From Pseudomonadota bacterium (lineage in GTDB: Bacteria > Desulfobacterota > Desulfobacteria > Desulfobacterales > Desulfobacteraceae), in assembly GCA_018816605.1 (NCBI GenBank), contig JAHIVS010000621.1, forward strand, positions 1-29,033: a stretch of 29,033 nt of DNA, read 5' to 3'. This document shows positions 8,284 to 29,033 of the stretch, piece by piece. Under the pieces are notes generated by a model. The model was given only the letters and a program-made list of their open reading frames with translations. It was not told the origin of the DNA and searched no databases. The translations under genes and the position numbers were made by a program. The first letter of the stretch is position 1. Each line of letters starts with the position of its first letter.

Positions 8284-9315
8284 CTATCGCCATTCAATAT
8301 CCTGGGACCGGAACAGGAGGATGACGTGTCTTCCTGGCAAAAGGCTTAAGGCCGCAGCCTGGTCCTGGGAAAAGCGTATATCCAGGGAAAAATCCCCGGC
8401 CTTAAGGCGGATCATGATCCGGCCATCGCTTTTTTCCATGAGCATGGCCGTGATTTGTGCTGTGATCTGGTTATCGTATCCGTTTGTCTTATCCCGTTTA
8501 AGGCAGATATGAATTTTTCCCTTTTGGATCACCGCGATTCCCCGGGTCCTGTTCCCCATGGGCAGGCGGATGTGTTCGTCTGCCCCGCCGTTGTCCAGCC
8601 ATTTTACCGGGGCATCTTTTTGTGACAGGTCATAGGGCGGCGGAATGATATTTTCCGTGCCCGTTGAAAAAATTTTGCCATTGGCAATGGAGATCCGTGT
8701 ATCCGTACATTCGGTCAGCCATGGCAGATCATGGCTTGCAATCACCAGGGTGCACCCCCAGTCTTCCCTGGCAGCCAGGGAGGCTTTCCGGATCTGTTCT
8801 GCGCTTTGGGTGTCCACATTGGCCACGGGCTCGTCCAGAAGCAGCACATCGGGTTTCAGGATGAGGCGGGCAGCCATGGCCACCCGCTGGGCTTCTCCGC
8901 CGGAAAGCGCATGCCATTGACGGTGGGCAAAATCCCCGTGGTCCAGCCCCACGCTTTCAAGGGCATTGCAGATTCTTTTTTCAAGGTTTGAAAGATCTTT
9001 CCGGATTTTCAGGCCATAGGCAATATTATCAAAGACCGACCGTCTTAACAGGTAGGGTTTCTGGGTAAGCAGGGTGACCCGGGAGCGGACCCGGGGGGAC
9101 AGGGGGGTTTCTTTGCGTCCGTTGAAACACACATCTCCTCTGGTTGGTTTCAGGGCAAAGGCCATAATTTTCAGCAAGGTGGATTTCCCACTGCCGTTGG
9201 GGCCGGTCAGGCCTGTAATGGATCCCCGGGAAATCTGCAGTTTGTCAATATCCAGAACGCATTTATCCATGTAGCAGTGCTGGATATGGTTTAATTGATA
9301 GGAGATCTGTTTCAT
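8284..9315 (-). CDS. tupC: Tungstate ABC transporter, ATP-binding protein
   Basis: This is the ATPase of a tungstate/molybdate-type importer. Of 343 residues, the first 220 or so form the nucleotide-binding domain: Walker A GPNGSGKST at 38-46, Q-loop in TLLTQKPYLLRRSVFDNIAYGL, signature LSGGEAQRVAMAARLI, Walker B VLLLDEP and switch His in VIASHD. The remaining 110 residues (from about AVIQKGKIHICLKR) form an extra C-terminal domain of beta character, like the TOBE/MOP-type regulatory domains of oxyanion transporters. Many TupC proteins lack or shorten this domain, so it may serve for feedback by the imported anion. The start overlaps the tupB stop by 4 bases (ATGA), indicating translational coupling. 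It is the last gene of tupABC. Confidence 0.9.
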   Translation of the reverse strand: MKQISYQLNHIQHCYMDKCVLDIDKLQISRGSITGLTGPNGSGKSTLLKIMAFALKPTRGDVCFNGRKETPLSPRVRSRVTLLTQKPYLLRRSVFDNIAYGLKIRKDLSNLEKRICNALESVGLDHGDFAHRQWHALSGGEAQRVAMAARLILKPDVLLLDEPVANVDTQSAEQIRKASLAAREDWGCTLVIASHDLPWLTECTDTRISIANGKIFSTGTENIIPPPYDLSQKDAPVKWLDNGGADEHIRLPMGNRTRGIAVIQKGKIHICLKRDKTNGYDNQITAQITAMLMEKSDGRIMIRLKAGDFSLDIRFSQDQAAALSLLPGRHVILLFRSQDIEWR

Positions 9316-9998
9316 TTTTTTCTCAAAAAAGAGAGGGAAATATTTACGGCAAAGGCAATACCAATGAGGACAATGCCCAAAGCAATGCCGTCGGCAAACA
9401 GTCCCTTGTTGGTTTCAAGGGCAATGGCCGTGGTAATGGTTCTGGTGTGATATTTGATGTTCCCCCCCACCATCATGGAGATTCCCACTTCCGTCAGTAC
9501 CCGGCCATAGGCCGTAACCGCTGCTGCCAGCAGCCCGAACCGGACCTCCCACAGACAGGTGGCAATGATGTTTTTTTTGCCTGCTCCCAGGGAAACCAGG
9601 GTCAGCTTGAGTTCCGGGTCAATATTTTCCACAATGGAGGCGGTGATGGCCGTGATAATCGGGAAGGCAAGAATGGTCTGGCCGATGGCAATGCCGGTGA
9701 GGGTAAACAACAGCCCGAACTGGCCCAAAGGACCCTGGCTTGAGATAAAGGCATAGACCAGAAGGCCGACAGAAACCGTGGGAAGGGCCAGGAGGGTGTC
9801 CAGAACAGTTCGAAGGGGTCTTTTCCATCTGAAATCAAAGTATCCCAGAAGGAAACCGCAGGGCAGACCTGCTCCAAGGCTGATCAGCATGGAGCAGGTG
9901 GAGGCCTTGAGTGTTGCAGAAATGGCTGTCCAGGTTGACGGGTCAAAGTGTATCAGCAGCTCAATGGCCCGGATAAAGCCTGCGACGATAAAATCCAT
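9312..9998 (-). CDS. tupB: Tungstate ABC transporter, permease
   Basis: The inner-membrane channel subunit of the tungstate importer, 228 residues, the usual TupB length. About five or six hydrophobic segments are visible (for example MLISLGAGLPCGFLLGYF, LLALPTVSVGLLVYAFI, GIALGIVLIGIAFAVNISL). The EAA-type loop that contacts the ATPase is in LVSLGAGKKNIIATCLWEVR, and TEVGISMMVGGNIK is typical of the TupB group. It starts 12 bases after the tupA stop and overlaps tupC by 4 bases, so the three genes are one transcription unit. It forms a homodimer in this class of importer (family knowledge). Confidence 0.92.
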   Translation of the reverse strand: MDFIVAGFIRAIELLIHFDPSTWTAISATLKASTCSMLISLGAGLPCGFLLGYFDFRWKRPLRTVLDTLLALPTVSVGLLVYAFISSQGPLGQFGLLFTLTGIAIGQTILAFPIITAITASIVENIDPELKLTLVSLGAGKKNIIATCLWEVRFGLLAAAVTAYGRVLTEVGISMMVGGNIKYHTRTITTAIALETNKGLFADGIALGIVLIGIAFAVNISLSFLRKK

Positions 9999-10010
9999 AA
10001 AAACCTTGTG

Positions 10011-10841
10011 CTAGCGGGCATTGGGAATAAATAATTTTTGACCCAGCAGCCTGAAATCACCGATGCGTTTCTGGCCGGCTTCCGATGCCATCCAGTCGGA
10101 AAATTGAATGGCAAGATCTATTTTTGCCTTGGGACAATTGTCCGGGTTCAGGGTCACCACGCTATACGGGTTCAAGAGGATTTCATCCCCCTCCACCAAA
10201 ACCTTCAAGGGCGCATTGCCGCCTTTGGTGTCCTGGTATTTGATATAGGTGCCCCGGTCTGTCATGGTATAACCGGATCGCTCCTGGGCCACATTGATGG
10301 TGGCCAGCATGCCCTGGCCGGTCTGGATATACCAGGCCTCTTGGTCCGGCAAAGCAATTGCGGCATCCTTCCACAGCTGCTGCTCCTTTTTGTGGGTGCC
10401 CGAATCATCCCCCCGGCTCATGAAGGAGGCCGGCAGGTTTTTGATGGCGGCAAGGGCATCTGGAATGCTTTTCCCCTTTATGCCGGCAGGATCTGATTCC
10501 GGTCCGATGATCACAAAATCATTGTACATGATTTCCCGCCGGTCTTTGCCATATCCTTTTTCAATAAAGGCTTTTTCAGCTGCAGGGGCATGGACCAGCA
10601 GCACATCCACGTCACAGTTTTCACCCAGTTTCAATGCCTTGCCTGTTCCTGTGGCAGTCCATTTGAGGGTGATGCCGGTTTCTTTTTCAAAATGGGGGAT
10701 CAGGTACTCGAGAAGACCTGTGTTGTCGGTGCTGGTCGTTGTGGCCATCATCAGGCTTTTTTCACTTGCCGGGGAGATGGGTGTCCAGGCCAGCAGGACT
10801 GCCATGGCCAGAAAAACGGATATTACTTTTTTGGGGCGCAT
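10011..10841 (-). CDS. tupA: Tungstate-binding periplasmic protein
   Basis: 276 residues with a clear signal peptide (MRPKKVISVFLAMAVLLAW, probable cleavage after the Ser-Pro-Ala near residue 25). The mature protein begins with the TupA hallmark ATTTSTDNTGLLEYL, whose Ser/Thr residues are implicated in oxyanion binding in this family. Further family features are GTGKALKLGENCDVDVLLVH, NDFVIIGPESDPAG and SRGDDSGTHKKEQ. TupA proteins generally bind tungstate with far higher affinity than molybdate, which separates them from ModA and WtpA. The sequence fits TupA rather than ModA because of the TTTSTDNTGLL and DDSGTHKKE blocks. Ribosome site TAGGAG precedes the ATG. Tungsten supply is relevant because a tungsten-dependent BamB is encoded in the same window. 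Confidence 0.93.
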   Translation of the reverse strand: MRPKKVISVFLAMAVLLAWTPISPASEKSLMMATTTSTDNTGLLEYLIPHFEKETGITLKWTATGTGKALKLGENCDVDVLLVHAPAAEKAFIEKGYGKDRREIMYNDFVIIGPESDPAGIKGKSIPDALAAIKNLPASFMSRGDDSGTHKKEQQLWKDAAIALPDQEAWYIQTGQGMLATINVAQERSGYTMTDRGTYIKYQDTKGGNAPLKVLVEGDEILLNPYSVVTLNPDNCPKAKIDLAIQFSDWMASEAGQKRIGDFRLLGQKLFIPNAR

Positions 10842-21122: not shown

Positions 21123-21528
21123 GCCATGGCTTCCCCACAGCTCAATGGCCCTATTGCAGCGGTATCCTGGGAAATGGCCCGCGAAAATGTGATTAAATGG
21201 GGGTAGCGGGTGCAATCTGTTAAAAATATCCCTGAGAAGGAAACCATTGATCTCTTAAACAAACACAAAGGGCCGGATGAAAACACTTCAGCATCCAAAT
21301 TCAGATACCCGTTCGTATGTTTAATTTCCAACCATCACCAGAATGCCCCCGCCTCTTCTCCCGTTAATTGAAGATAAAAAATCCGATTTTTGTCTGATTT
21401 GAGGACGCCTGCCACAAAAAAATAATATTAAATTCTTGACGTGTAGCTGTAATATAACTATAAAATGTCCAAGTAATAGCTGGAATGTACCCCTGGATAG
21501 CTATTTTGTAAACAGGAGTCTCAACATC
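21123..21528. other. Leader region between hemA and the benzoyl-CoA operon
   Basis: About 400 bases. It holds a weak hairpin over the hemA stop, an AT-only stem (AAAAAT-CCG-ATTTTT) in 21376-21396 and an A/T-rich tract directly before the -35 box at 21436. The tract resembles an UP element. The promoter is listed separately. Confidence 0.45.
21433..21464 (+). promoter_or_regulatory. Promoter with operator-like repeats, benzoyl-CoA operon
   Basis: TTGACG (21436-21441), a spacer of exactly 17 bases and TATAAA (21459-21464) form a near-consensus sigma-70 promoter behind an A/T-rich tract. Inside the spacer are GTAGCT (21443-21448) and ATAACT (21454-21459), two RTARYT repeats 11 bp apart. The block 21433-21459 is 20/27 identical to 27618-27644 ahead of bamB. 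Placement between -35 and -10 suits a repressor site. It lies 65 bases upstream of the DUF2080-like start codon. Confidence 0.75.
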
Positions 21529-21708
21529 ATGGCGAGCGAGGATGAAAAAACGGATAGGGCTGAAGAGCGTGATCCGCCCAGCAAGGTGAAGTTTGAAATC
21601 TATGGTGAAGAATTGATCGAAAAAACGGTCAAATCCAGCGGGAACAGCGGCAGGGTTTATCTTCCGCCTGAATGGATCGGGACCAAAGTAAAAGTGGTGA
21701 AATGCTAG
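21529..21708 (+). CDS. DUF2080-like / AbrB-type small protein
   Basis: 59 residues from the ATG at 21529, with AGGAG at 21514-21518. The reading frame runs further upstream, but that part would start inside the promoter. The C-terminal half reads EKTVKSSGNSGRVYLPPEWIGTKVKVVKC. It resembles DUF2080, a short family known mostly from archaea and annotated there as transposon-associated, whose core (SGNSGRVY-P-WIGKKVKV) looks like a swapped-hairpin AbrB/SpoVT DNA-binding half. The first 20 residues are acidic and probably unordered. It is the first gene of the benzoyl-CoA operon, 24 bases before bcrC. A DNA-binding role on the repeats in the adjacent promoter is a guess; a structural or RNA-related role is equally open. 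Confidence 0.75.
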   Translation: MASEDEKTDRAEERDPPSKVKFEIYGEELIEKTVKSSGNSGRVYLPPEWIGTKVKVVKC

Positions 21709-21732: not shown

Positions 21733-22902
21733 ATGGCACTATCGCAATTTCATAAATGGTATGCGGGCAGGCACGAATACCAGAAAGACTGGAAAAAAAG
21801 AACCCATCAAAAAATAGTCGGGTATTTTTGTACCTACACCCCGGAAGAAATATTTTACGCATTTGAGGTTCTGCCGGTTCGAATTCTGGGGTCCCATGAA
21901 CTGGAAGATCTTACAGAACCCCATATTTTTCCGATGTTCTGCCCCTTTTGCCGTGATATCCTTGCCCAGGGACTTTCGGGAAAATACGATTATCTGGACG
22001 GTATTGCCTTTGGCCAGTCCTGTCTTCATTTACAGCAGGCCTTTACCTCCTGGGAGATCCACCAAAACCCTGGGTGGAGCCATTATCTGCCCATGCCGAA
22101 CCATGTCCAGAGCCCAAGGGCAATTCCATTTCTCAAACAAGAGTATGGGCTGCTGATCAGAAAGCTTGAGCTGCTGACCGGCAGGACGATTACCGATGCC
22201 GACCTTGAAAGGGGAATTTGTATTATGAATGAGGTCCGGCAGACCATGAAACAGATCTATGCACTCAGAAAACACAAGAATCCGCCCATAACCGGTGCCC
22301 AGAGCATGGTTATGATCTGTTCCGCTTTCTTTACAGATGCCCGGGAATGGCTGCCGGCGGCAAAAAAAGCCATCGCAGAACTTGAGGAAAGACCCCCTGA
22401 AACAGGCCTCTTTGAAAGGGATACGGGGAAAAGGCTGCTTCTCGTGGGCAGTGAAAATGATGACATGGCGTTTATCGAGATGGTAGAGAATCTGGGGGAG
22501 ACAGGAGCTGTGGGGGCCACCATTGTTGTTGAAGAGCATTGCGCCACCACCCGCTATTTCTGGGATGAGGCACAAGAAGGCACCCCGGATCCCTTAACCG
22601 CCATTGCACAAAGGTATTGTACCAGGACACCCTGTCCGTCCAAAGACTGGCCCCAAAGAAGGCGGGTGGAAAAGATTGTCGAACTGGCCAGGGCGTTTAA
22701 GTGTGACGGTGCCCTTGTGATCCGGCAAAAATTTTGTGATACCCATGAAGCGGATATGCCATTTGTCAAAAAAGCGCTTGAAGAGGCCGGGATTCCCACC
22801 TATTTCCTGGAATTTGATGTGGTTACGCCGGTGGGAGCCTTCTCAATCCGTGTGGAGGAATTTCTTGAGACCCTGGAAACAGAATATGATTTTTTTGATT
22901 AA
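21733..22902 (+). CDS. bcrC: Class I benzoyl-CoA reductase-like subunit, BcrC/BadD/BzdN type
   Basis: 389 residues (about 44 kDa), matching the gamma subunit of ATP-dependent benzoyl-CoA reductases and the wider 2-hydroxyacyl-CoA dehydratase family (HgdB-like fold). Visible family features are GYFCTYTPEEIFYAFEVLPVR near residue 30 with C33, the MFCPFCRD pair C70/C73, GIAFGQSCLHLQQAF, and a late VIRQKFCDTHEADMPFV block. Some of these cysteines should hold a [4Fe-4S] cluster at the interface with BcrB. The AGGGGGG run one base before the ATG is an unusually close ribosome site. The normal operon order in Thauera is bcrC-bcrB-bcrA-bcrD. Here bcrB follows after 38 bases but the ATPases do not. 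The enzyme may act on benzoyl-CoA or on a related aryl- or acyl-CoA. Confidence 0.82.
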   Translation: MALSQFHKWYAGRHEYQKDWKKRTHQKIVGYFCTYTPEEIFYAFEVLPVRILGSHELEDLTEPHIFPMFCPFCRDILAQGLSGKYDYLDGIAFGQSCLHLQQAFTSWEIHQNPGWSHYLPMPNHVQSPRAIPFLKQEYGLLIRKLELLTGRTITDADLERGICIMNEVRQTMKQIYALRKHKNPPITGAQSMVMICSAFFTDAREWLPAAKKAIAELEERPPETGLFERDTGKRLLLVGSENDDMAFIEMVENLGETGAVGATIVVEEHCATTRYFWDEAQEGTPDPLTAIAQRYCTRTPCPSKDWPQRRRVEKIVELARAFKCDGALVIRQKFCDTHEADMPFVKKALEEAGIPTYFLEFDVVTPVGAFSIRVEEFLETLETEYDFFD

Positions 22903-22940
22903 CGGGCCGTCCGGGTTCCGGCCGCAACCTTGGGAGCAAA

Positions 22941-24245
22941 ATGGGAAGATACCCCACAGAACCGCTTAAATGCTGGAAAAAGGCAAAGGAACTGCGCAAT
23001 AGGTTCTATCAGAATTATGCCCGGGCCGGGGAAAAAGGCGGCCTTAGATGGATGGGAAGCGCCTGGGCATTTGACGCGGTTCCTTCGGGGCTGGGGGAGG
23101 ATGTCTTTTGTATTTCCGGAGAATCCTATGGCGCCGCCTGTGCCTTTGACAGACCCCTGTCAAAAAAATTTCTGGAGGCGGCCCGGAACTTTGGGTTTTC
23201 CCGGGATCTTTGCGCCCACATGAGAAATTACTGGGGATCCCTTCTGGCAGATGAATCCGCCTTTGGCGGAAAATTTGTCAAACCTGATTTTGGATGGAGC
23301 CAGCATATCTGCTGTTCCCATGCAAAATGGTATCAAAATGCAGCCCAGATGAAAGGAGGGGTGCCCATTTTTGTGGTGGATGTCGGCGTGGGCGCCTATC
23401 CCCCCTTTGAGCCCAAGATGTATCCCCACAGAATAAAATATGTGGCCGATCAGCTGCTGGACGGAATTGAGTGGCTTACGGCAACAACGGGAAGAAAATT
23501 TGATGATGAACGCTTTATCAATGCTGCCTGGAATGATCTGCGCTCCACCCATAAGTGGGCACAGATCTGCATGCTCAACCGCGCAAAGCCCGCGCCTCTG
23601 GATGAAAAATTTCTCTATTCCTTTTATGTGTTCGGAACATTACAAAAATCAAATTCCGAGTTTGCCGATTTCTATGATGAACTTTATGACGAAGTAAAAG
23701 ACCGGGTGGACAGAGGCATTGCAGCCGTTCACAATGAGCGGTTCCGGGTGATGTCGGATATCGGATCTCCCTGGGGGTTTTCCGACATTTACAAACGCAT
23801 GGCAGACCAGGGTGTTGTTTCCATCGGATCTCTCTATACATTTGGCCTTGAAGGAATGTGGCTTTATGATGCCCAAACCCATGACCTTCGTCCGAGACCC
23901 TTGCCGGACAGAAAACCCGGGACCCGGGAAGAATGCTGCACCCTGCTGGCCGACTGGCATTTGTCCAAACCCATGTACCAGCATTTTTACCACCCGGACA
24001 ACAAAACCCGGATGATGGATGCCATTGCCCGGCGGTGGGATACAGACGGAATTGTTCTTCATTATAACCGGGGATGCCGGGGGCTTTGTATGGGGATTGC
24101 CGAAACCCGTCTGGCCCTCATTGAACGCGGTCATCGTGTGGTGGCCTACGAAGGGAATATGGGCGATGAGAATGAATTTGATCAAGCAGCTACCCGAAAA
24201 CGTCTGGATATTTTTATGGAAGGTCTGGGCTGTAAAATAAATTAA
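22941..24245 (+). CDS. bcrB: Class I benzoyl-CoA reductase-like subunit, BcrB/BadE/BzdO type
   Basis: 434 residues (about 49 kDa), the size of the beta subunit of class I benzoyl-CoA reductases. Cysteines are placed as in the family: VFCISGESYGAACAF, RDLCAHMRNYWGSLL, WSQHICCSHAKWYQ and YNRGCRGLCMGIAETR. The last two regions are candidates for Fe-S ligands and the substrate pocket. The segment GVPIFVVDVGVGAYPPFEP and the helix-rich middle also fit the family. RBS GGGAG lies at 22932-22936. It pairs with the preceding BcrC-like chain, as BcrB and BcrC form the substrate-reducing module. No BcrA/BcrD activator (ASKHA ATPase with DxG motif) follows; had begins 26 bases later. Confidence 0.82.
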   Translation: MGRYPTEPLKCWKKAKELRNRFYQNYARAGEKGGLRWMGSAWAFDAVPSGLGEDVFCISGESYGAACAFDRPLSKKFLEAARNFGFSRDLCAHMRNYWGSLLADESAFGGKFVKPDFGWSQHICCSHAKWYQNAAQMKGGVPIFVVDVGVGAYPPFEPKMYPHRIKYVADQLLDGIEWLTATTGRKFDDERFINAAWNDLRSTHKWAQICMLNRAKPAPLDEKFLYSFYVFGTLQKSNSEFADFYDELYDEVKDRVDRGIAAVHNERFRVMSDIGSPWGFSDIYKRMADQGVVSIGSLYTFGLEGMWLYDAQTHDLRPRPLPDRKPGTREECCTLLADWHLSKPMYQHFYHPDNKTRMMDAIARRWDTDGIVLHYNRGCRGLCMGIAETRLALIERGHRVVAYEGNMGDENEFDQAATRKRLDIFMEGLGCKIN

Positions 24246-24271
24246 GGAAAGATAATGGAAAGGAGAAAAAA

Positions 24272-25384
24272 ATGACACAAGTACCGGATAAAATATGGAC
24301 CTGGCAAATGGTAACTCCCTTTAGCAAAGACAGGGAAACCGGCGTTGTCACCCCTGGTCGGTTGGAAAAAACCCAGATAGAGGTTCCCGAGCTCAAACCC
24401 GGAGAGGTTTTGGTGAAAGTTGCCGGATGCGGTATCTGCCACACGGACCTTGGATACTTTTATTATGGCGTGCCCACGGTGAACAAGCCTCCCCTGACAC
24501 TGGGCCATGAAATTTCCGGAACCATTGTGGCCGCCGCCGGTGATGTTGAATCCTGGATGGGAAAAGAGGTGATCATTCCTGCGGTTATGCCGTGCAGGAA
24601 ATGCCATCTGTGTAAAACCGGCAGGGGAAACCGCTGCCTTGATCAGAAAATGCCGGGGAACAGCATGGGGATTTATGGAGGATTTTCCAGTCATATCCCG
24701 GTTCCGGCCATTGATTTGTGCGAGGTAAAGAACAGAGGGGATCTTCCCCTGGAAAAACTGGCGGTTGTGGCCGATGCGGCAACGACTCCGTTCCAGGCGG
24801 CCAAAAGGGCGGATATTCAGGTGGGGGATAACACCATTGTCATTGGCGTCGGCGGGGTGGGGCAATACATGGTTCAGATTCTGAAAGCCCTGGGAGCCAA
24901 CTCTGTGGTTGCCATTGATATCAACCAGGATCGCCTGGATACCATGCTGAAAAACGGGGCTGATTTTTCTGTCAATTCCATGGGCAAAACCCCCAAGGAA
25001 ATTGCAGGAGAACTCAAAGCCTTTAGAAAAGAAAAGGGACTTGCTTCCACCGGCTGGAAGATTTTTGAAGTTTCGGGAACCAAACCCGGCCAGGAACTGG
25101 GGCTTGCATTGTTGAGCTTTACCGGAAAAATGGTGGTGGTGGGATTTGGTCCCCACAAGGTAGAATATTCCATTTCAAGGCTCATGGCCTTTGATGCCGA
25201 ATTGATCGGCACCTGGGGATGTCTGCCGGAATACTATCCATCGGTGCTGGGCATGATCACCGGCAAAAAGATCAATTTTGAGGAATTTGTCCAAACCCGG
25301 CCCATGGGGACCATTAAAGAAAGCTTTGATGAAGCCCACAAGCAGTCGCCGGATCAGAGAATCGTACTGGTACCTGATTTTTAG
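24272..25384 (+). CDS. had: 6-hydroxycyclohex-1-ene-1-carbonyl-CoA dehydrogenase (zinc ADH family)
   Basis: 370 residues. It oxidises the 6-hydroxy group of 6-hydroxycyclohex-1-ene-1-carbonyl-CoA to the 6-oxo compound with NAD+, the step before ring opening in the benzoyl-CoA pathway. Catalytic zinc ligands are C56 (CGICHTDLG) and H79-E80 (GHE). The structural zinc loop is C108, C111, C114 and C122 (PCRKCHLCKTGRGNRC). The cofactor fold shows VIGVGGVGQYMVQIL and VAIDINQDRL with the acidic residue that prefers NAD. The assignment over general alcohol dehydrogenases rests on position between bcrB and oah and on the characteristic N-terminus IWTWQMV. It corresponds to Geobacter BamQ. RBS GGAG precedes the ATG. 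Confidence 0.9.
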   Translation: MTQVPDKIWTWQMVTPFSKDRETGVVTPGRLEKTQIEVPELKPGEVLVKVAGCGICHTDLGYFYYGVPTVNKPPLTLGHEISGTIVAAAGDVESWMGKEVIIPAVMPCRKCHLCKTGRGNRCLDQKMPGNSMGIYGGFSSHIPVPAIDLCEVKNRGDLPLEKLAVVADAATTPFQAAKRADIQVGDNTIVIGVGGVGQYMVQILKALGANSVVAIDINQDRLDTMLKNGADFSVNSMGKTPKEIAGELKAFRKEKGLASTGWKIFEVSGTKPGQELGLALLSFTGKMVVVGFGPHKVEYSISRLMAFDAELIGTWGCLPEYYPSVLGMITGKKINFEEFVQTRPMGTIKESFDEAHKQSPDQRIVLVPDF

Positions 25385-25454
25385 TATCTCAATTTTCGGA
25401 CCTGACCCATGTAAATTCTATCAACGAATACACTTATAGATAAGGAGATGACCC

Positions 25455-26204
25455 ATGAAATTAGAAGGGAAAAAAGCCATTGTTACCGGTGGGAGCCGGG
25501 GAATCGGAAAAGCCATTGCCCTGATGTATGCCAAAGAGGGGGCAGATGTTCTGGTAAACTACCATTCCAATGATGCCGCAGCCAAAGAAACCTGTGCCGA
25601 GATCCAAGCCCTTGGCCGCAAAGCCGTTGCGGTTGCGGCCGATGTTGCAAACTATGCCAGTGCCCAGAATATGGTGGATGAATGTGTGAAACAGCTAGGC
25701 GGCGTTGATATTGTCGTCAACAATGCCGGTGTTTCCAAACCCTCCATGCTGCTCAAGATGACCGAACAAGACTGGGATGCTATCATTGATATCCATTTGA
25801 AGGCCGCTTTTAACACCACACAGGCAGCCGGCCGGTATATGAAAGAGAAAAATTATGGCAAGATCATCAATGTGATCTCAACTGCAGGCATTTTCGGCAC
25901 CGTCGGCCAGATCAACTATGCCTCTGCAAAGGCCGGGATCATCGGGTTCACAAAATCAGCCTCCCGGGAGTTGGGCAGGTACAATATCAATGTAAATGTC
26001 ATCTGCCCGGGCATTACAAAAACAGAAATGACAGGCAAGCTTCAGACCGATGAAAAGCTTCGTAAAATTTATGAGGGTAGAATTCAGCTGGGCCGGTTTG
26101 CGGAACCCGAAGAGATTGCCCCTGCTTTTGTATTCCTGGCTTCAGATGATGCAAGCTATATTACCGGTCAGGTTCTGGGTGTGGACGGCGGCTATATCGG
26201 TTAG
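25455..26204 (+). CDS. SDR-family oxidoreductase (FabG-like)
   Basis: 249 residues with the classical short-chain dehydrogenase layout: cofactor loop TGGSRGIG (residues 11-18), NNAG in VDIVVNNAGVSKP, catalytic triad S142, Y155 and K159 (NYASAKAG) and the C-terminal ITGQVLGVDGGY. The RBS AAGGAG (25442-25447) is strong. The sequence is FabG-like, reducing or oxidising a 3-oxo/3-hydroxy acyl thioester. Inside a benzoyl-CoA operon it probably acts on a CoA thioester, for example 3-hydroxypimelyl-CoA after ring opening, or on a substituted-ring intermediate, but the sequence cannot tell which. The gene lies 70 bases after had and 117 bases before oah. Confidence 0.9.
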   Translation: MKLEGKKAIVTGGSRGIGKAIALMYAKEGADVLVNYHSNDAAAKETCAEIQALGRKAVAVAADVANYASAQNMVDECVKQLGGVDIVVNNAGVSKPSMLLKMTEQDWDAIIDIHLKAAFNTTQAAGRYMKEKNYGKIINVISTAGIFGTVGQINYASAKAGIIGFTKSASRELGRYNINVNVICPGITKTEMTGKLQTDEKLRKIYEGRIQLGRFAEPEEIAPAFVFLASDDASYITGQVLGVDGGYIG

Positions 26205-26321
26205 CCGGTTATGGGGTCAGGGGCAGTCATTCCTGCCGGATAACAAGATGTTGACGGCATGCAAAACTGCCCGGCCCCTTGGTAAAACAATAAAAGTTTT
26301 AATATTATAAGGAGAGCGAAG

Positions 26322-27458
26322 ATGAGTCTTGAGTGGATGCCGAGAGAGAACGAAGTTAAGGATCATTCCCTGCATAGAAACCCCCACTGGGGAACCCAAG
26401 CACCCTGTGTGATGTATGAAAAAAAGCCGCTGACAGATCCGAACGGCAAGGTTACTGAAAAATTGTTTGTTGCCTGGATCACCCTGAACAACCCCAGACA
26501 ATTCAACTCCTATACCACGGACATGGTAAAGGGTGTGATTGCCGGTTTTGAAAATGCGTCCCTGGACAGAAGTGTTGTGGCGGTTGTTTTTACAGGTACC
26601 GGCCCCTATGCATTCTGTACCGGTGGAAACACCAGAGAGTATTCGGAATTCTATTCAAAAAGATGTGATGAGTACGGCCAGTACATGGAGCTTTTCAACC
26701 ATATGGTGGATTCCATTCTTGCCTGTAAAAAACCGGTTGTCTGCCGGGTGAACGGCATGCGGGTGGCCGGAGGCCAGGAAATAGGGCTTGCCTGTGACAT
26801 AGCGGTTTCTTCCGACCTTGCCATTTTCGGCCAGGCAGGACCCAAGCACGGGTCTGCCCCTGCCGGCGGTTCATCGGATTTTCTCCCCTGGTTCCTGACA
26901 GCGGAAGATGCCATGTGGAACTGTGTCTCCTGTGAAACATGGTCTTCCTATAAGATGAAGGCAAAGGGCATGATTTCCAAGGTGGTCCCGGTTCTTAAAA
27001 TTAACGGAGAATGGGTGAGGAATCCCGCCGTTATTACGGACAAATATGTGGAAGATGGAGAGATTGTCTATGGTGAGTACAAATCCGGACAGGCACTCCA
27101 GGACGGCCGTGACCTCATAAAAAAATACCAGGCAGATGCCGATTTTGAATTGCTGGACAAAGAGGTCAACAATGTGATCTGGAAATTTGCAAATCTCTTC
27201 CCCGGTTGTTTGATCAAATCCATTGACGGTATCCGTCAGAAAAAGAAATTTTTCTGGGATACCATGAAAAACGACCACCGGCATTGGCTGGCCGCCAATA
27301 TGGGCGGAGAAGCCTTCCTGGGCTTTGGCGCCTTTAATACCAAGAAAATAACGGGTAAGGATACCATTGACTTCATTAAATTCCGTCAGAATGTGGCCGA
27401 TTCACAGCTATGGAATGATGAGATGTTTGCCAGCGTTATGGGCAAGCCCCAAGAGTAG
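26322..27458 (+). CDS. oah: 6-oxocyclohex-1-ene-1-carbonyl-CoA hydrolase, ring-opening (BamA)
   Basis: 378 residues in the crotonase superfamily. The enzyme adds two waters to 6-oxocyclohex-1-ene-1-carbonyl-CoA and opens the ring to 3-hydroxypimelyl-CoA. The N-terminal MSLEWMPRENEVKDHSLHRN and the oxyanion-hole region GPYAFCTGGNTREYSEFY are typical of BamA rather than ordinary enoyl-CoA hydratases. So are VNGMRVAGGQEIGLACDIAV and FGQAGPKHGSAPAGGSSDF, and the roughly 100-residue C-terminal extension is also a BamA trait. This gene is the usual marker for anaerobic aromatic degradation. RBS AAGGAG is at 26309-26314. It ends the first unit, followed 33 bases later by a strong terminator. Confidence 0.96.
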   Translation: MSLEWMPRENEVKDHSLHRNPHWGTQAPCVMYEKKPLTDPNGKVTEKLFVAWITLNNPRQFNSYTTDMVKGVIAGFENASLDRSVVAVVFTGTGPYAFCTGGNTREYSEFYSKRCDEYGQYMELFNHMVDSILACKKPVVCRVNGMRVAGGQEIGLACDIAVSSDLAIFGQAGPKHGSAPAGGSSDFLPWFLTAEDAMWNCVSCETWSSYKMKAKGMISKVVPVLKINGEWVRNPAVITDKYVEDGEIVYGEYKSGQALQDGRDLIKKYQADADFELLDKEVNNVIWKFANLFPGCLIKSIDGIRQKKKFFWDTMKNDHRHWLAANMGGEAFLGFGAFNTKKITGKDTIDFIKFRQNVADSQLWNDEMFASVMGKPQE

Positions 27459-27490
27459 GGTCAGTGGAATAATGGATATATAGGTTGGAG

Positions 27491-27540
27491 AATTTATGGT
27501 TCAGGTCCTTGTTTTCGGGTGCTGAACCATAAATTTTTTT
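27491..27540 (+). terminator. Strong intrinsic terminator after oah
   Basis: Arms AATTTATGGTTCAG (27491-27504) and CTGAACCATAAATT (27522-27535) are perfectly complementary over 14 bases with a 17-base loop, followed by a T-run to 27540. A second small hairpin, TGCCGG/CCGGCA (27541-27546 and 27556-27561), comes right after. This separates oah from bamB transcriptionally. Confidence 0.85.
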
Positions 27541-27617
27541 TGCCGGTGTTACCTGCCGGCATGATCCCGGTTGCACTGCCTGTCGGCGCGGGGCAATGGA
27601 TTTTTTTTAATCATTTT

Positions 27618-27650
27618 TTCTTGACACGTAGTTATTATGTAGCTTATATA
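27618..27650 (+). promoter_or_regulatory. Promoter with the same operator-like repeats, bamB
   Basis: TTGACA (27621-27626) is followed after 18 bases by TATATA (27645-27650), which runs into TATAAT at 27649-27654. The spacer holds GTAGTT (27628-27633) and GTAGCT (27639-27644), again 11 bp apart. A T-rich tract precedes it. The block matches the promoter at 21433-21459 in 20 of 27 positions. It lies 92 bases ahead of the bamB start codon. Confidence 0.72.
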
Positions 27651-27741
27651 TAATCACATTGTACCACGGAGCATGGATGTTTTTGTATCGCCAAGGGTCT
27701 TTTTGTGATTCGGTATTAAAGGCATATGGAAGGGGAAAAAA

Positions 27742-29033
27742 ATGAGGTATGCAGAGACAGGGTTTAACCTGGAAATTGATTTAACCCGGGGAAACATTGA
27801 GAAGGTAGCAACGGATCCAAGGGAGACCGAGCTTTACCTGGGCGGGCTGGGAACAAATGCAAAGATATTATGGGACAGGGTTCCCCCTGAAGCGGGTGCC
27901 TTTTCACCCGAGAACCTGTTGATTTTCAGTGCCGGTCTTTTGTGCGGCACACCGGCTGTCGGCTGTAACCGCACCATTGTGACCACCATTTCTCCCCAGA
28001 CCCAGCTGATGGCGTTTTCCATGATGGGCGGATTTTTTGCACCCGAGCTCAAGTATGCGGGGCTTGACAAGGTGGTTCTCCGGGGCAAGTCCCCAAAACT
28101 GGTATATATATGGATACACAACGATAAGGTGGAATTGCGGGATGCCTCCCATTTAAAGGGCAAAGGCGCCCTTGAAGCGGCTGAAATGATTCGAAAAGAG
28201 TTAAAAGAACCCAAGGCCCAGGTGGCTGCCATTGGCAAGGCGGGTGAAAACAGGGTTTTCTATGCGTCCATCGAACAGGGCCGGTCCTCCGCCTCCCGGG
28301 GCGGCATAGGGGCCGTCATGGGGGACAAAGGGGTCAAGGCCATTGTTGTTCGCGGTACAAAGGATGTCAATATTGCCAAACCCATGGAATATATGGAATT
28401 GTGCAATGAGGTCATGGCATATATACAATTTCGCAATGAGAACCCGATTCCGGGCGTCATGCCCATCCTGGCAGGCCTTGGGTCTCCCCAGGAGATGAAA
28501 GTCCATGATGAAAAATGGCATACTGAAAATTTCAATTGGGGAAATTCCAGGGTAAGGAGAAAAGATTTCTGGACCGAAGAGGTTGCAAGGGACTGGCTGG
28601 TGACAATGGAAAAGGCAAGGACCCGCCTGATCTCCTGTTACAATTGTCCCATGACCTGCGGGGCCACCATTTCCATGCCGGGCCTGCCCACCTACATGAT
28701 GAAATGCTTTACAAAACTGACCTATACCATGGGCGCTTTTTCAGACCTGGATTTTGGACTCAGAATTGCCCAGAAAGCCACGGAATACGGATTGGACGGA
28801 TTCTCCGCCCCCCAGGTAATGGCCTTTGCCCTTGAACTGCTTGAAGCTAAAATTCTGTCACCCGAGGATTTTCCCGGAATGCCCGAAGACAATGAAGGCC
28901 GGTTTTATTATCTGCTGAACATGATTGTGAACCGGGAAGGCATCGGGGATGTGCTGGCAGAAGGGACCTACTGGGCAGCCGAAAAAATCGGCAAGGGTGC
29001 ACAGGCCTATGCCCATAACAATATCAAGAAGCA
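27742..29033 (+). CDS. bamB: Class II benzoyl-CoA reductase active-site subunit BamB (3'-truncated by the window)
   Basis: 430 codons are visible and the frame is still open at the window end; the full protein is about 650 residues. It belongs to the aldehyde:ferredoxin oxidoreductase family, whose members bind a tungsten bis-pyranopterin and one [4Fe-4S] cluster. Visible features are the N-terminal MRYAETGFNLEIDLTRGNIE, TPAVGCNRTIVTTISPQTQ, the pterin-contact block SASRGGIGAVMGDKGVKAIV and the cluster motif CYNCPMTC (C-x2-C-x3-C); the fourth cysteine lies outside the window. The match with what I recall of Geobacter BamB (HDEKWHTENFNWGN; CFTKLTYTMG; LDGFSAPQVMAFA) is far closer than to general AORs. 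BamB reduces benzoyl-CoA to the 1,5-dienoyl-CoA without ATP, within the BamBCDEFGHI complex. RBS AAGGGG precedes the ATG. Confidence 0.95.
   Translation, partial: MRYAETGFNLEIDLTRGNIEKVATDPRETELYLGGLGTNAKILWDRVPPEAGAFSPENLLIFSAGLLCGTPAVGCNRTIVTTISPQTQLMAFSMMGGFFAPELKYAGLDKVVLRGKSPKLVYIWIHNDKVELRDASHLKGKGALEAAEMIRKELKEPKAQVAAIGKAGENRVFYASIEQGRSSASRGGIGAVMGDKGVKAIVVRGTKDVNIAKPMEYMELCNEVMAYIQFRNENPIPGVMPILAGLGSPQEMKVHDEKWHTENFNWGNSRVRRKDFWTEEVARDWLVTMEKARTRLISCYNCPMTCGATISMPGLPTYMMKCFTKLTYTMGAFSDLDFGLRIAQKATEYGLDGFSAPQVMAFALELLEAKILSPEDFPGMPEDNEGRFYYLLNMIVNREGIGDVLAEGTYWAAEKIGKGAQAYAHNNIKK

Follow-up and report, generated by a model that had tools for sequence, protein, structure and literature searches.

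The 29 033-base contig JAHIVS010000621.1 (assembly GCA_018816605.1, from a sulfate-reducing bacterium of the Desulfobacteraceae, related to Desulfobacula), analyzed over its whole length and called the window below, carries two adjacent genes whose products we identify by sequence as the catalytic dimer, BzdN and BzdO, of a BZD-type class I benzoyl-coenzyme A (benzoyl-CoA) reductase. They stand at the head of a predicted operon that continues into bamB, which encodes the tungsten subunit of a class II benzoyl-CoA reductase, and no gene for the ATPase subunits BzdP and BzdQ was found in the window or in the draft genomes of two relatives. Class I enzymes, which pay in ATP, and class II enzymes, which use electron bifurcation, have been treated as alternative routes to breaking aromaticity; here the active-site modules of both lie in one operon, from which the ATP module is absent. 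The pair is changing rapidly and is nonetheless constrained, under purifying selection.

A class I catalytic pair within a class II operon

A preliminary description of this DNA had placed a class I catalytic pair of the Bcr type (BcrC and BcrB) at this position. The class I pair is indeed there, and the Bcr label must be replaced. In profile hidden Markov model (HMM) searches the second chain scored 545 bits with TIGR03191 (bzdO), above the cut-off of 448.6 bits, and the first scored 400 bits with TIGR03190 (bzdN), which lies below the equivalog cut-off of 453.8 bits yet is its best-matching model. Among solved structures, the best matches are the BzdO and BzdN chains in PDB 8s02 (518 and 392 bits), which come from the BzdNOPQ enzyme of Aromatoleum sp. 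CIB; homology extends over the full length of both window chains. Because of these scores and this closest structure, BcrC and BcrB become BzdN and BzdO; the type assignment rests on the HMM scores together with a tree of Bzd proteins. An AlphaFold model of BzdO (mean predicted local distance difference test score, pLDDT, of 80.6) superposes on 8s02 with a template modeling (TM) score of ∼0.9, a comparison of fold only, the model being ligand-free.

The Bcr models matched at only 33 bits (TIGR02260) and 79 bits (TIGR02263), which rules out a Bcr-type identity. Membership of the 2-hydroxyacyl-CoA dehydratases, which belong to the same superfamily and work with HgdC-type activators (PDB 3o3m), was likewise ruled out by scores, structure match and residues, the Bzd models and 8s02 being far ahead (a HadB-type model scored 92 bits, versus 545 for bzdO). 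In a tree of BzdO and BzdN, too, both chains fell inside the Bzd family, and the outcome named earlier as refuting, a place among dehydratases unrelated to aryl-CoA, did not arise. Since the pair is Bzd-type, the bcrCBAD order of Thauera, against which the genes had been compared, is the wrong yardstick for it.

All genes from bzdN to bamB lie on the forward strand (Table 1), separated in turn by 38, 26, 70, 117 and 283 bases; the 26 bases between bzdO and had are as first described. This spacing and a common promoter-like block ahead of the genes suggest that they are cotranscribed. The separate promoter that had been assigned to bamB was not recovered: a crude scan of the 283-base gap between oah and bamB gave no promoter-like site on the forward strand. 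The class II system, a tungsten enzyme of an unrelated protein family, is represented in the window by bamB alone, which the window end cuts off.

Among 43 loci in a collection of species genomes, the window's gene order recurred, within the DNA retrieved, only at locus L001 of Desulfobacula sp. S2_67 (genome G001), with identities of 93% (bzdN), 96% (bzdO), 98% (had), 98% (SDR), 96% (oah) and 97% (bamB). Beyond bamB, the S2_67 contig carries additional bam genes and genes for electron-transfer flavoproteins. Its BamB matched Geobacter BamB (PDB 4z3w) at 1302 bits, and BamD, E, F and H were recognized by their domains; the names BamC, G and I were given by position only, BamC having no family match. 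These class II genes encode HdrA-, FlpD- and NuoF-like proteins. Genome G008 of the same genus (locus L078) has the same order as the window (bzdO 77%, bzdN 74% identical), with one additional gene between oah and bamB, which we take to be nitroreductase-like, and with counterparts of S2_67 bamB to bamH in the stretch read. The SDR proteins of G008 and of a further congener, G007, are 93–95% identical to the window's.

The usual division is between facultative anaerobes (class I) and obligate anaerobes (class II) (PMC5109826, in excerpt; sources so marked were available in part), and the preliminary description had taken the classes as alternatives. That view is weakened by our counts: bzdO scored over its cut-off in 15 of 389 sampled genomes of the order, at 16 loci, and five of those 15 also carry bamB at ≥60% identity. 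BzdNOPQ genes have been reported from Chloroflexi (PMC5736913, in excerpt). The genome of the sulfate reducer NaphS2 combines class I-like genes (NcrABCD/bzdNOPQ-like) with class II genes; unlike in the window, its bzdNOPQ homologs stand together in a cluster separate from bam (PMC2988823, in excerpt). What is unusual here is thus not co-occurrence in a genome but one operon for both classes together with the failure to find BzdP and BzdQ. An arrangement with bzdNO in a bam operon is not described in the available parts of the open-access literature searched (including PMC3794298, PMC5594585, PMC13416013 and PMC13328260), a search that did not extend to the Desulfobacula toluolica Tol2 genome paper.

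The dedicated ATPase

No ASKHA ATPase was found in the window, where tblastn with four ASKHA types returned a best E value of 0.84, which is noise; this bears out the earlier account, in which class I catalytic genes lie in a class II operon and the ATPase subunits are absent. The search further covered two related draft genomes of unstated completeness, S2_67 and G008, and orthologs of BzdP and BzdQ were found neither on the contigs that carry the locus nor genome-wide. Nor do bcrA- or bcrD-like genes follow the window end on these two contigs, which continue the locus. The genome-wide search for activators proposed earlier was thus run in the relatives' drafts, and yielded HgdC-like activators and no BzdP or BzdQ.

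A PF01869 search returned, over cut-off, two small and one large ASKHA protein in S2_67 and three small and two large in G008. In a tree of 15 small proteins from the genus with 18 BzdP and 18 BzdQ sequences (many inner branches of which are weak), the BzdP clade (support 99) and the BzdQ clade (100) contained no protein of the genus; the small proteins of S2_67 and G008 clustered with HgdC-, YjiL- or C98-type proteins of their congeners. With the bzdQ model no protein of the two genomes exceeded 190 bits, versus a cut-off of 380. One small ASKHA protein of S2_67 adjoins a 2-hydroxyacyl-CoA dehydratase-like pair and another a BzdN-like single protein, presumably a double-cubane protein. A dehydratase-type locus with an HgdC-type activator is present in all six genomes of the genus. 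Across the order an ASKHA gene pair adjoins bzdO at 13 of the 16 loci; the others are those of S2_67 and G008 and one locus of genome G146, which has P/Q-type pairs elsewhere.

Active-site residues

In the 8s02 enzyme, BzdO residues Cys95, Cys128 and Cys380 are cluster ligands, Glu65 and His131 lie at the bound water, and the ring is surrounded by Trp46, Leu302, Leu383 and Tyr97; the thioester oxygen is hydrogen-bonded by Tyr97, Tyr298 and Gln274, and the cluster is contacted by Glu381 and Gly382 (PMC11971306, in excerpt). The window BzdO retains the three cysteines, Glu65, His131, Trp46, Leu302 and Tyr298. In both the window and S2_67, Tyr97 is replaced by His, Gln274 by Gly and Glu381 by Arg, each replacement being confined to these two among 61 BzdO rows. 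Two of the three carbonyl-binding residues are therefore lost in this lineage, Tyr298 being kept. The remaining named positions checked are conserved apart from 124, where the window, S2_67, G008 and G011 (a member of the same family) have Ser. BzdN retains seven family-conserved cysteines (36, 73, 76, 100, 263, 293 and 327, 8s02 numbering) as well as Arg53, Arg267, Arg290 and His330; the available part of PMC11971306 does not specify which six cysteines act as ligands.

G008 BzdO keeps the ancestral Tyr97, Gln274 and Glu381, and hence all three carbonyl-binding residues. Because G008 also lacks BzdP and BzdQ, their absence is separable from the pocket changes. At columns invariant among bzdPQ-linked rows, at least one of the three orphan pairs (window, S2_67 and G008) differs at 22 of 159 in BzdO and 15 of 108 in BzdN. 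Within BzdO residues 269–291 six of 13 such columns are changed, versus 10 of 146 elsewhere (p 4.5e-4); this value is descriptive only, since the clustering was noticed after the list had been viewed.

Distribution, history and selection

Within the genus, bzdO scores over cut-off in two of six genomes (S2_67 and G008). Congeners G007 and G009 have had, SDR, oah and bam genes without bzdNO; the remaining two, G010 and G006, also lack bzdNO (the bam contig of G010 starts within bamB, and G006 gave no bamB match). At an E value of 1e-60 or better, bzdO matched in three of 86 genomes of the family, the third being G011 (locus L136), which carries bzdNOPQ. The G011 genes resemble the window's in their position in the tree and in a DUF2080 reading frame before bzdN, and differ in having the ATPase pair after bzdO; no bamB was found in the 1.9 Mb G011 genome.

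Short chains and L037 (the same locus as L153) were removed before alignment. In a tree of BzdO and BzdN (52 rows, with support from the Shimodaira–Hasegawa-like approximate likelihood ratio test, SH-aLRT, only), the window, S2_67 and G008 cluster together (100), with G011 as their sister (99), inside a nine-locus group whose other members are all linked to bzdPQ. Path lengths from the node shared with G011 are 0.09 to G011, 0.23 to G008, 0.30 to S2_67 and 0.34 to the window. A tree of had, SDR, oah and bamB pairs the window with S2_67 (99/98) and G008 with G007 (95/97), with G009 outside. The simplest history drawn from these trees is that bzdNO entered the class II operon once (or that bzdPQ was lost there once) within the genus of S2_67, and that G007 later lost bzdNO, as its pairing with G008 suggests.

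Relative to had and oah, bzdNO has diverged quickly: the ratio of the distances is 1.97 for window and L001, 3.10 for window and L078, and 3.47 for L001 and L078, against a median of 0.75 (0.47–1.43) over 36 pairs of nine bzdPQ-linked Pseudomonadota loci. That median excludes the nine pairs involving L154, whose ratios (1.79–1.94) are well above it despite linkage to bzdPQ. Ratios of nonsynonymous to synonymous rates (dN/dS) between the window and L001 are 0.144 for bzdN, 0.096 for bzdO, 0.032 for had, 0.028 for SDR, 0.064 for oah and 0.066 for bamB. Of 46 differences between these two in both chains, six fall at sites invariant in bzdPQ-linked relatives, where 14.4 are expected (avoidance p 0.017 for BzdO and 0.078 for BzdN). 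These ratios and the site-wise constraint disfavor neutral decay as the sole explanation.

Possible roles of the orphan pair

A distant activator and a different substrate had both been suggested for the orphan pair, and both are possible. We favor, tentatively and with somewhat less than even confidence, a functional, diverging, class I-derived pair, with a different ASKHA activator supplying it in trans. The cluster and family-conserved residues retained in both chains, the low dN/dS, the avoidance of family-invariant sites, the pocket replacements common to the window and S2_67, the common promoter-like core and the failure to find BzdP or BzdQ in either draft speak for this reading. The BzdNO dimer would still be an enzyme, and a non-cognate activator encoded elsewhere would supply low-potential electrons in an ATP-dependent step; the likeliest candidate is the HgdC-type protein beside the dehydratase-like pair in each genome of the genus searched. 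The double-cubane cluster of BzdN would take up these electrons and hand them on to the [4Fe-4S]-OH2 cluster in BzdO, which would reduce the ring of an aryl-CoA. For the window lineage this would probably be a substituted aryl-CoA, plain benzoyl-CoA being the class II enzyme's job. Class I activators are ATP-dependent, and supply in trans is possible because BZD-type dimers are predicted to bind their activator only transiently (PMC11971306, in excerpt).

Several observations weigh against activation of the pair in trans. Signs of adaptation are missing in the activators: a search for coevolution between bzdNO and the HgdC-type protein, made on branch lengths, found none, the end branches (0.079 in S2_67 and 0.081 in G008) being no faster than those of four congeners without bzdNO (0.064–0.079). 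The absence of the ATPase rests on the window and two drafts of unstated completeness. Since four of the six genomes of the genus lack bzdNO, most simply by loss in G007, the pair is dispensable, and its high rate fits fading constraint as well.

These last points lead to the alternative that the pair is a relic, which we consider rather unlikely: class II would have replaced class I, with the ATPase genes lost first and the catalytic pair, by now nearly functionless, following. The graded states in the family (bzdNOPQ in the sister G011; bzdNO in the window, S2_67 and G008; neither in G007 and G009, which keep the core of the operon head) fit such a sequence, as do the placement of G007, the rapid evolution and the loss of substrate-binding residues. 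Against it, the reading frames are intact in three genomes, dN/dS is 0.10–0.14, recent differences avoid family-invariant sites and the cluster cysteines are retained.

We hold it unlikely that a class I enzyme has given rise, in the window lineage, to a new double-cubane enzyme that has dropped the ATPase for good and that would reduce, or reductively remove a substituent from, a non-benzoyl aryl-CoA, its electrons supplied by a shared activator or by the class II machinery of its operon. An ATP-independent electron donor, also raised in the preliminary description, is neither favored nor ruled out by the data; exchange of electrons without ATP, whether with ferredoxin or with the Bam complex of class II, the pair oxidizing dienoyl-CoA or reducing an easier ring, seems to us less probable again. 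BzdNO without its ATPase does oxidize dienoyl-CoA to benzoyl-CoA with viologens, but alone it gave no reduction of benzoyl-CoA, with either Ti(III)-citrate or dithionite as the reductant (PMC11971306, in excerpt). The shared operon with genes for HdrA-, FlpD- and NuoF-like proteins and the altered residue by the catalytic cluster would suit such an enzyme; however, dienoyl-CoA oxidation would reverse the class II reaction, the family-matched neighbors of the pair (hemA and had) are no electron carriers, and G008 lacks BzdP and BzdQ although its pocket is unchanged. Least probable, and very doubtful, is an ordinary class I reductase whose bzdPQ genes lie elsewhere and were missed, for although the genomes are drafts, the window is a whole contig and the G146 orphan locus coexists with P/Q pairs elsewhere, two separate assemblies contain no protein of the BzdP or BzdQ clades and the pocket changes and rate are unlike those of bzdPQ-linked relatives.

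If the pair works, the class I catalytic dimer and the ATPase dedicated to it are separable; should the pair be a relic, the compared operons record how one reductase class gave way stepwise to another. The altered carbonyl-binding residues, set against the G008 relative that keeps them, offer a direct route to a test.

Operon head and DUF2080 reading frames

Table 1. Features of the window and DUF2080 open reading frames (ORFs) at other loci
Feature	DNA	Position	Strand	Basis or remark
Promoter/operator-like block (putative)	window	21433..21481	+	conserved, at operon head; 18-base core 21436-21453
DUF2080 ORF, 59 aa	window	21529..21708	+	PF09853 26.1 bits (cut-off 21.5); weak MazE/AbrB-like match
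bzdN-type gene (double-cubane subunit), 389 aa	window	21733..22902	+	TIGR03190 400 bits; PDB 8s02_B
bzdO-type gene (catalytic [4Fe-4S] subunit), 434 aa	window	22941..24245	+	TIGR03191 545 bits; PDB 8s02_A; Tyr97His, Gln274Gly, Glu381Arg (8s02 numbering)
had	window	24272..25384	+	TIGR03201 486 bits, over cut-off
SDR-family dehydrogenase	window	25455..26204	+	PF13561; SDR also in class II operon of bzdNO-less congeners
oah	window	26322..27458	+	TIGR03200 545 bits, over cut-off
bamB (class II, W subunit), truncated by window end	window	27742..29033	+	AFOR domains; 97% to L001 bamB
DUF2080 ORF	L001	97-264		
DUF2080 ORF	L078	16807-16980		
DUF2080 ORF	L207	10497-10673		ahead of had
DUF2080 ORF	L136	12163-12285		
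DUF2080 ORF	L210	8900-9028		
DUF2080 ORFs	L002, L141, L150		opposite	past bzdPQ

At their operon heads, the window, G008, G007 and G009 share the 18-base core of the promoter-like block without a single difference, with or without bzdNO downstream; allowing up to three mismatches, it occurs once in the window, against 0.01 expected. The L001 contig begins within the leader. In the window a 59-codon DUF2080 ORF lies between the block and bzdN, its stop 24 bases upstream of bzdN; the ORF also precedes bzdN in L001, L078 (G008) and L136 (G011). The ORF stands directly ahead of had in G007 and, in genome G386 (L210), ahead of bamB; because of the latter position it is no proof of a scar. DUF2080 proteins are thus found with benzoyl-CoA reductase genes of both classes, and the protein is possibly a regulator.

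Other loci

Upstream in the window (8284-10841) are genes for an ABC transporter (ATPase, permease and PBP_like_2 binding protein), which we take to be a possible tungstate importer that would suit the tungsten enzyme BamB. G008 and G007 each have a second bamB-like gene (L201, G008:C74; L202, G007:C163), 62–63% identical to the S2_67 copy and with one TAA within the matched stretch in both genomes.

A second type of orphan bzdN/bzdO-like pair occurs at L151, L152 and L153 (G249:C77, G159:C224 and G005:C170), with no ASKHA gene on the contig. Its BzdO has Trp46Glu, His131Gln and Leu302Val and its BzdN Cys76Ser and Arg290Lys; an aminotransferase-like gene is a neighbor (checked in L153 only), and these genomes also carry bzdNOPQ elsewhere. 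Seven loci (L023 and L026–L031) have a bzdO-like gene, 53–55% identical, with no bzdN above 90 bits in the DNA retrieved (only ∼1 kb upstream for L028); an SDR gene lies nearby on the other strand at six of them, and a complete bzdNOPQ set (L018) is present as well in the genome of L027. At L147 (G146:C71) methylmalonyl-CoA mutase-like and B12-binding genes stand between bzdN and bzdO, with enzymes of the enoyl-CoA hydratase type also encoded and no ASKHA gene on the contig.

Locus L154 (G386) is an ATPase-containing counterpart of the window cluster: bzdP and bzdQ, further genes, then bzdN, bzdO, had and oah. An SDR gene, 71% identical to that of the window, lies one gene further along. At L146 (G249:C138), bzdNOPQ is followed by bamG-like (40%), bamH-like (64%) and bamI-like (41%) genes, which puts a class I enzyme beside a class II-type NADH-linked module.

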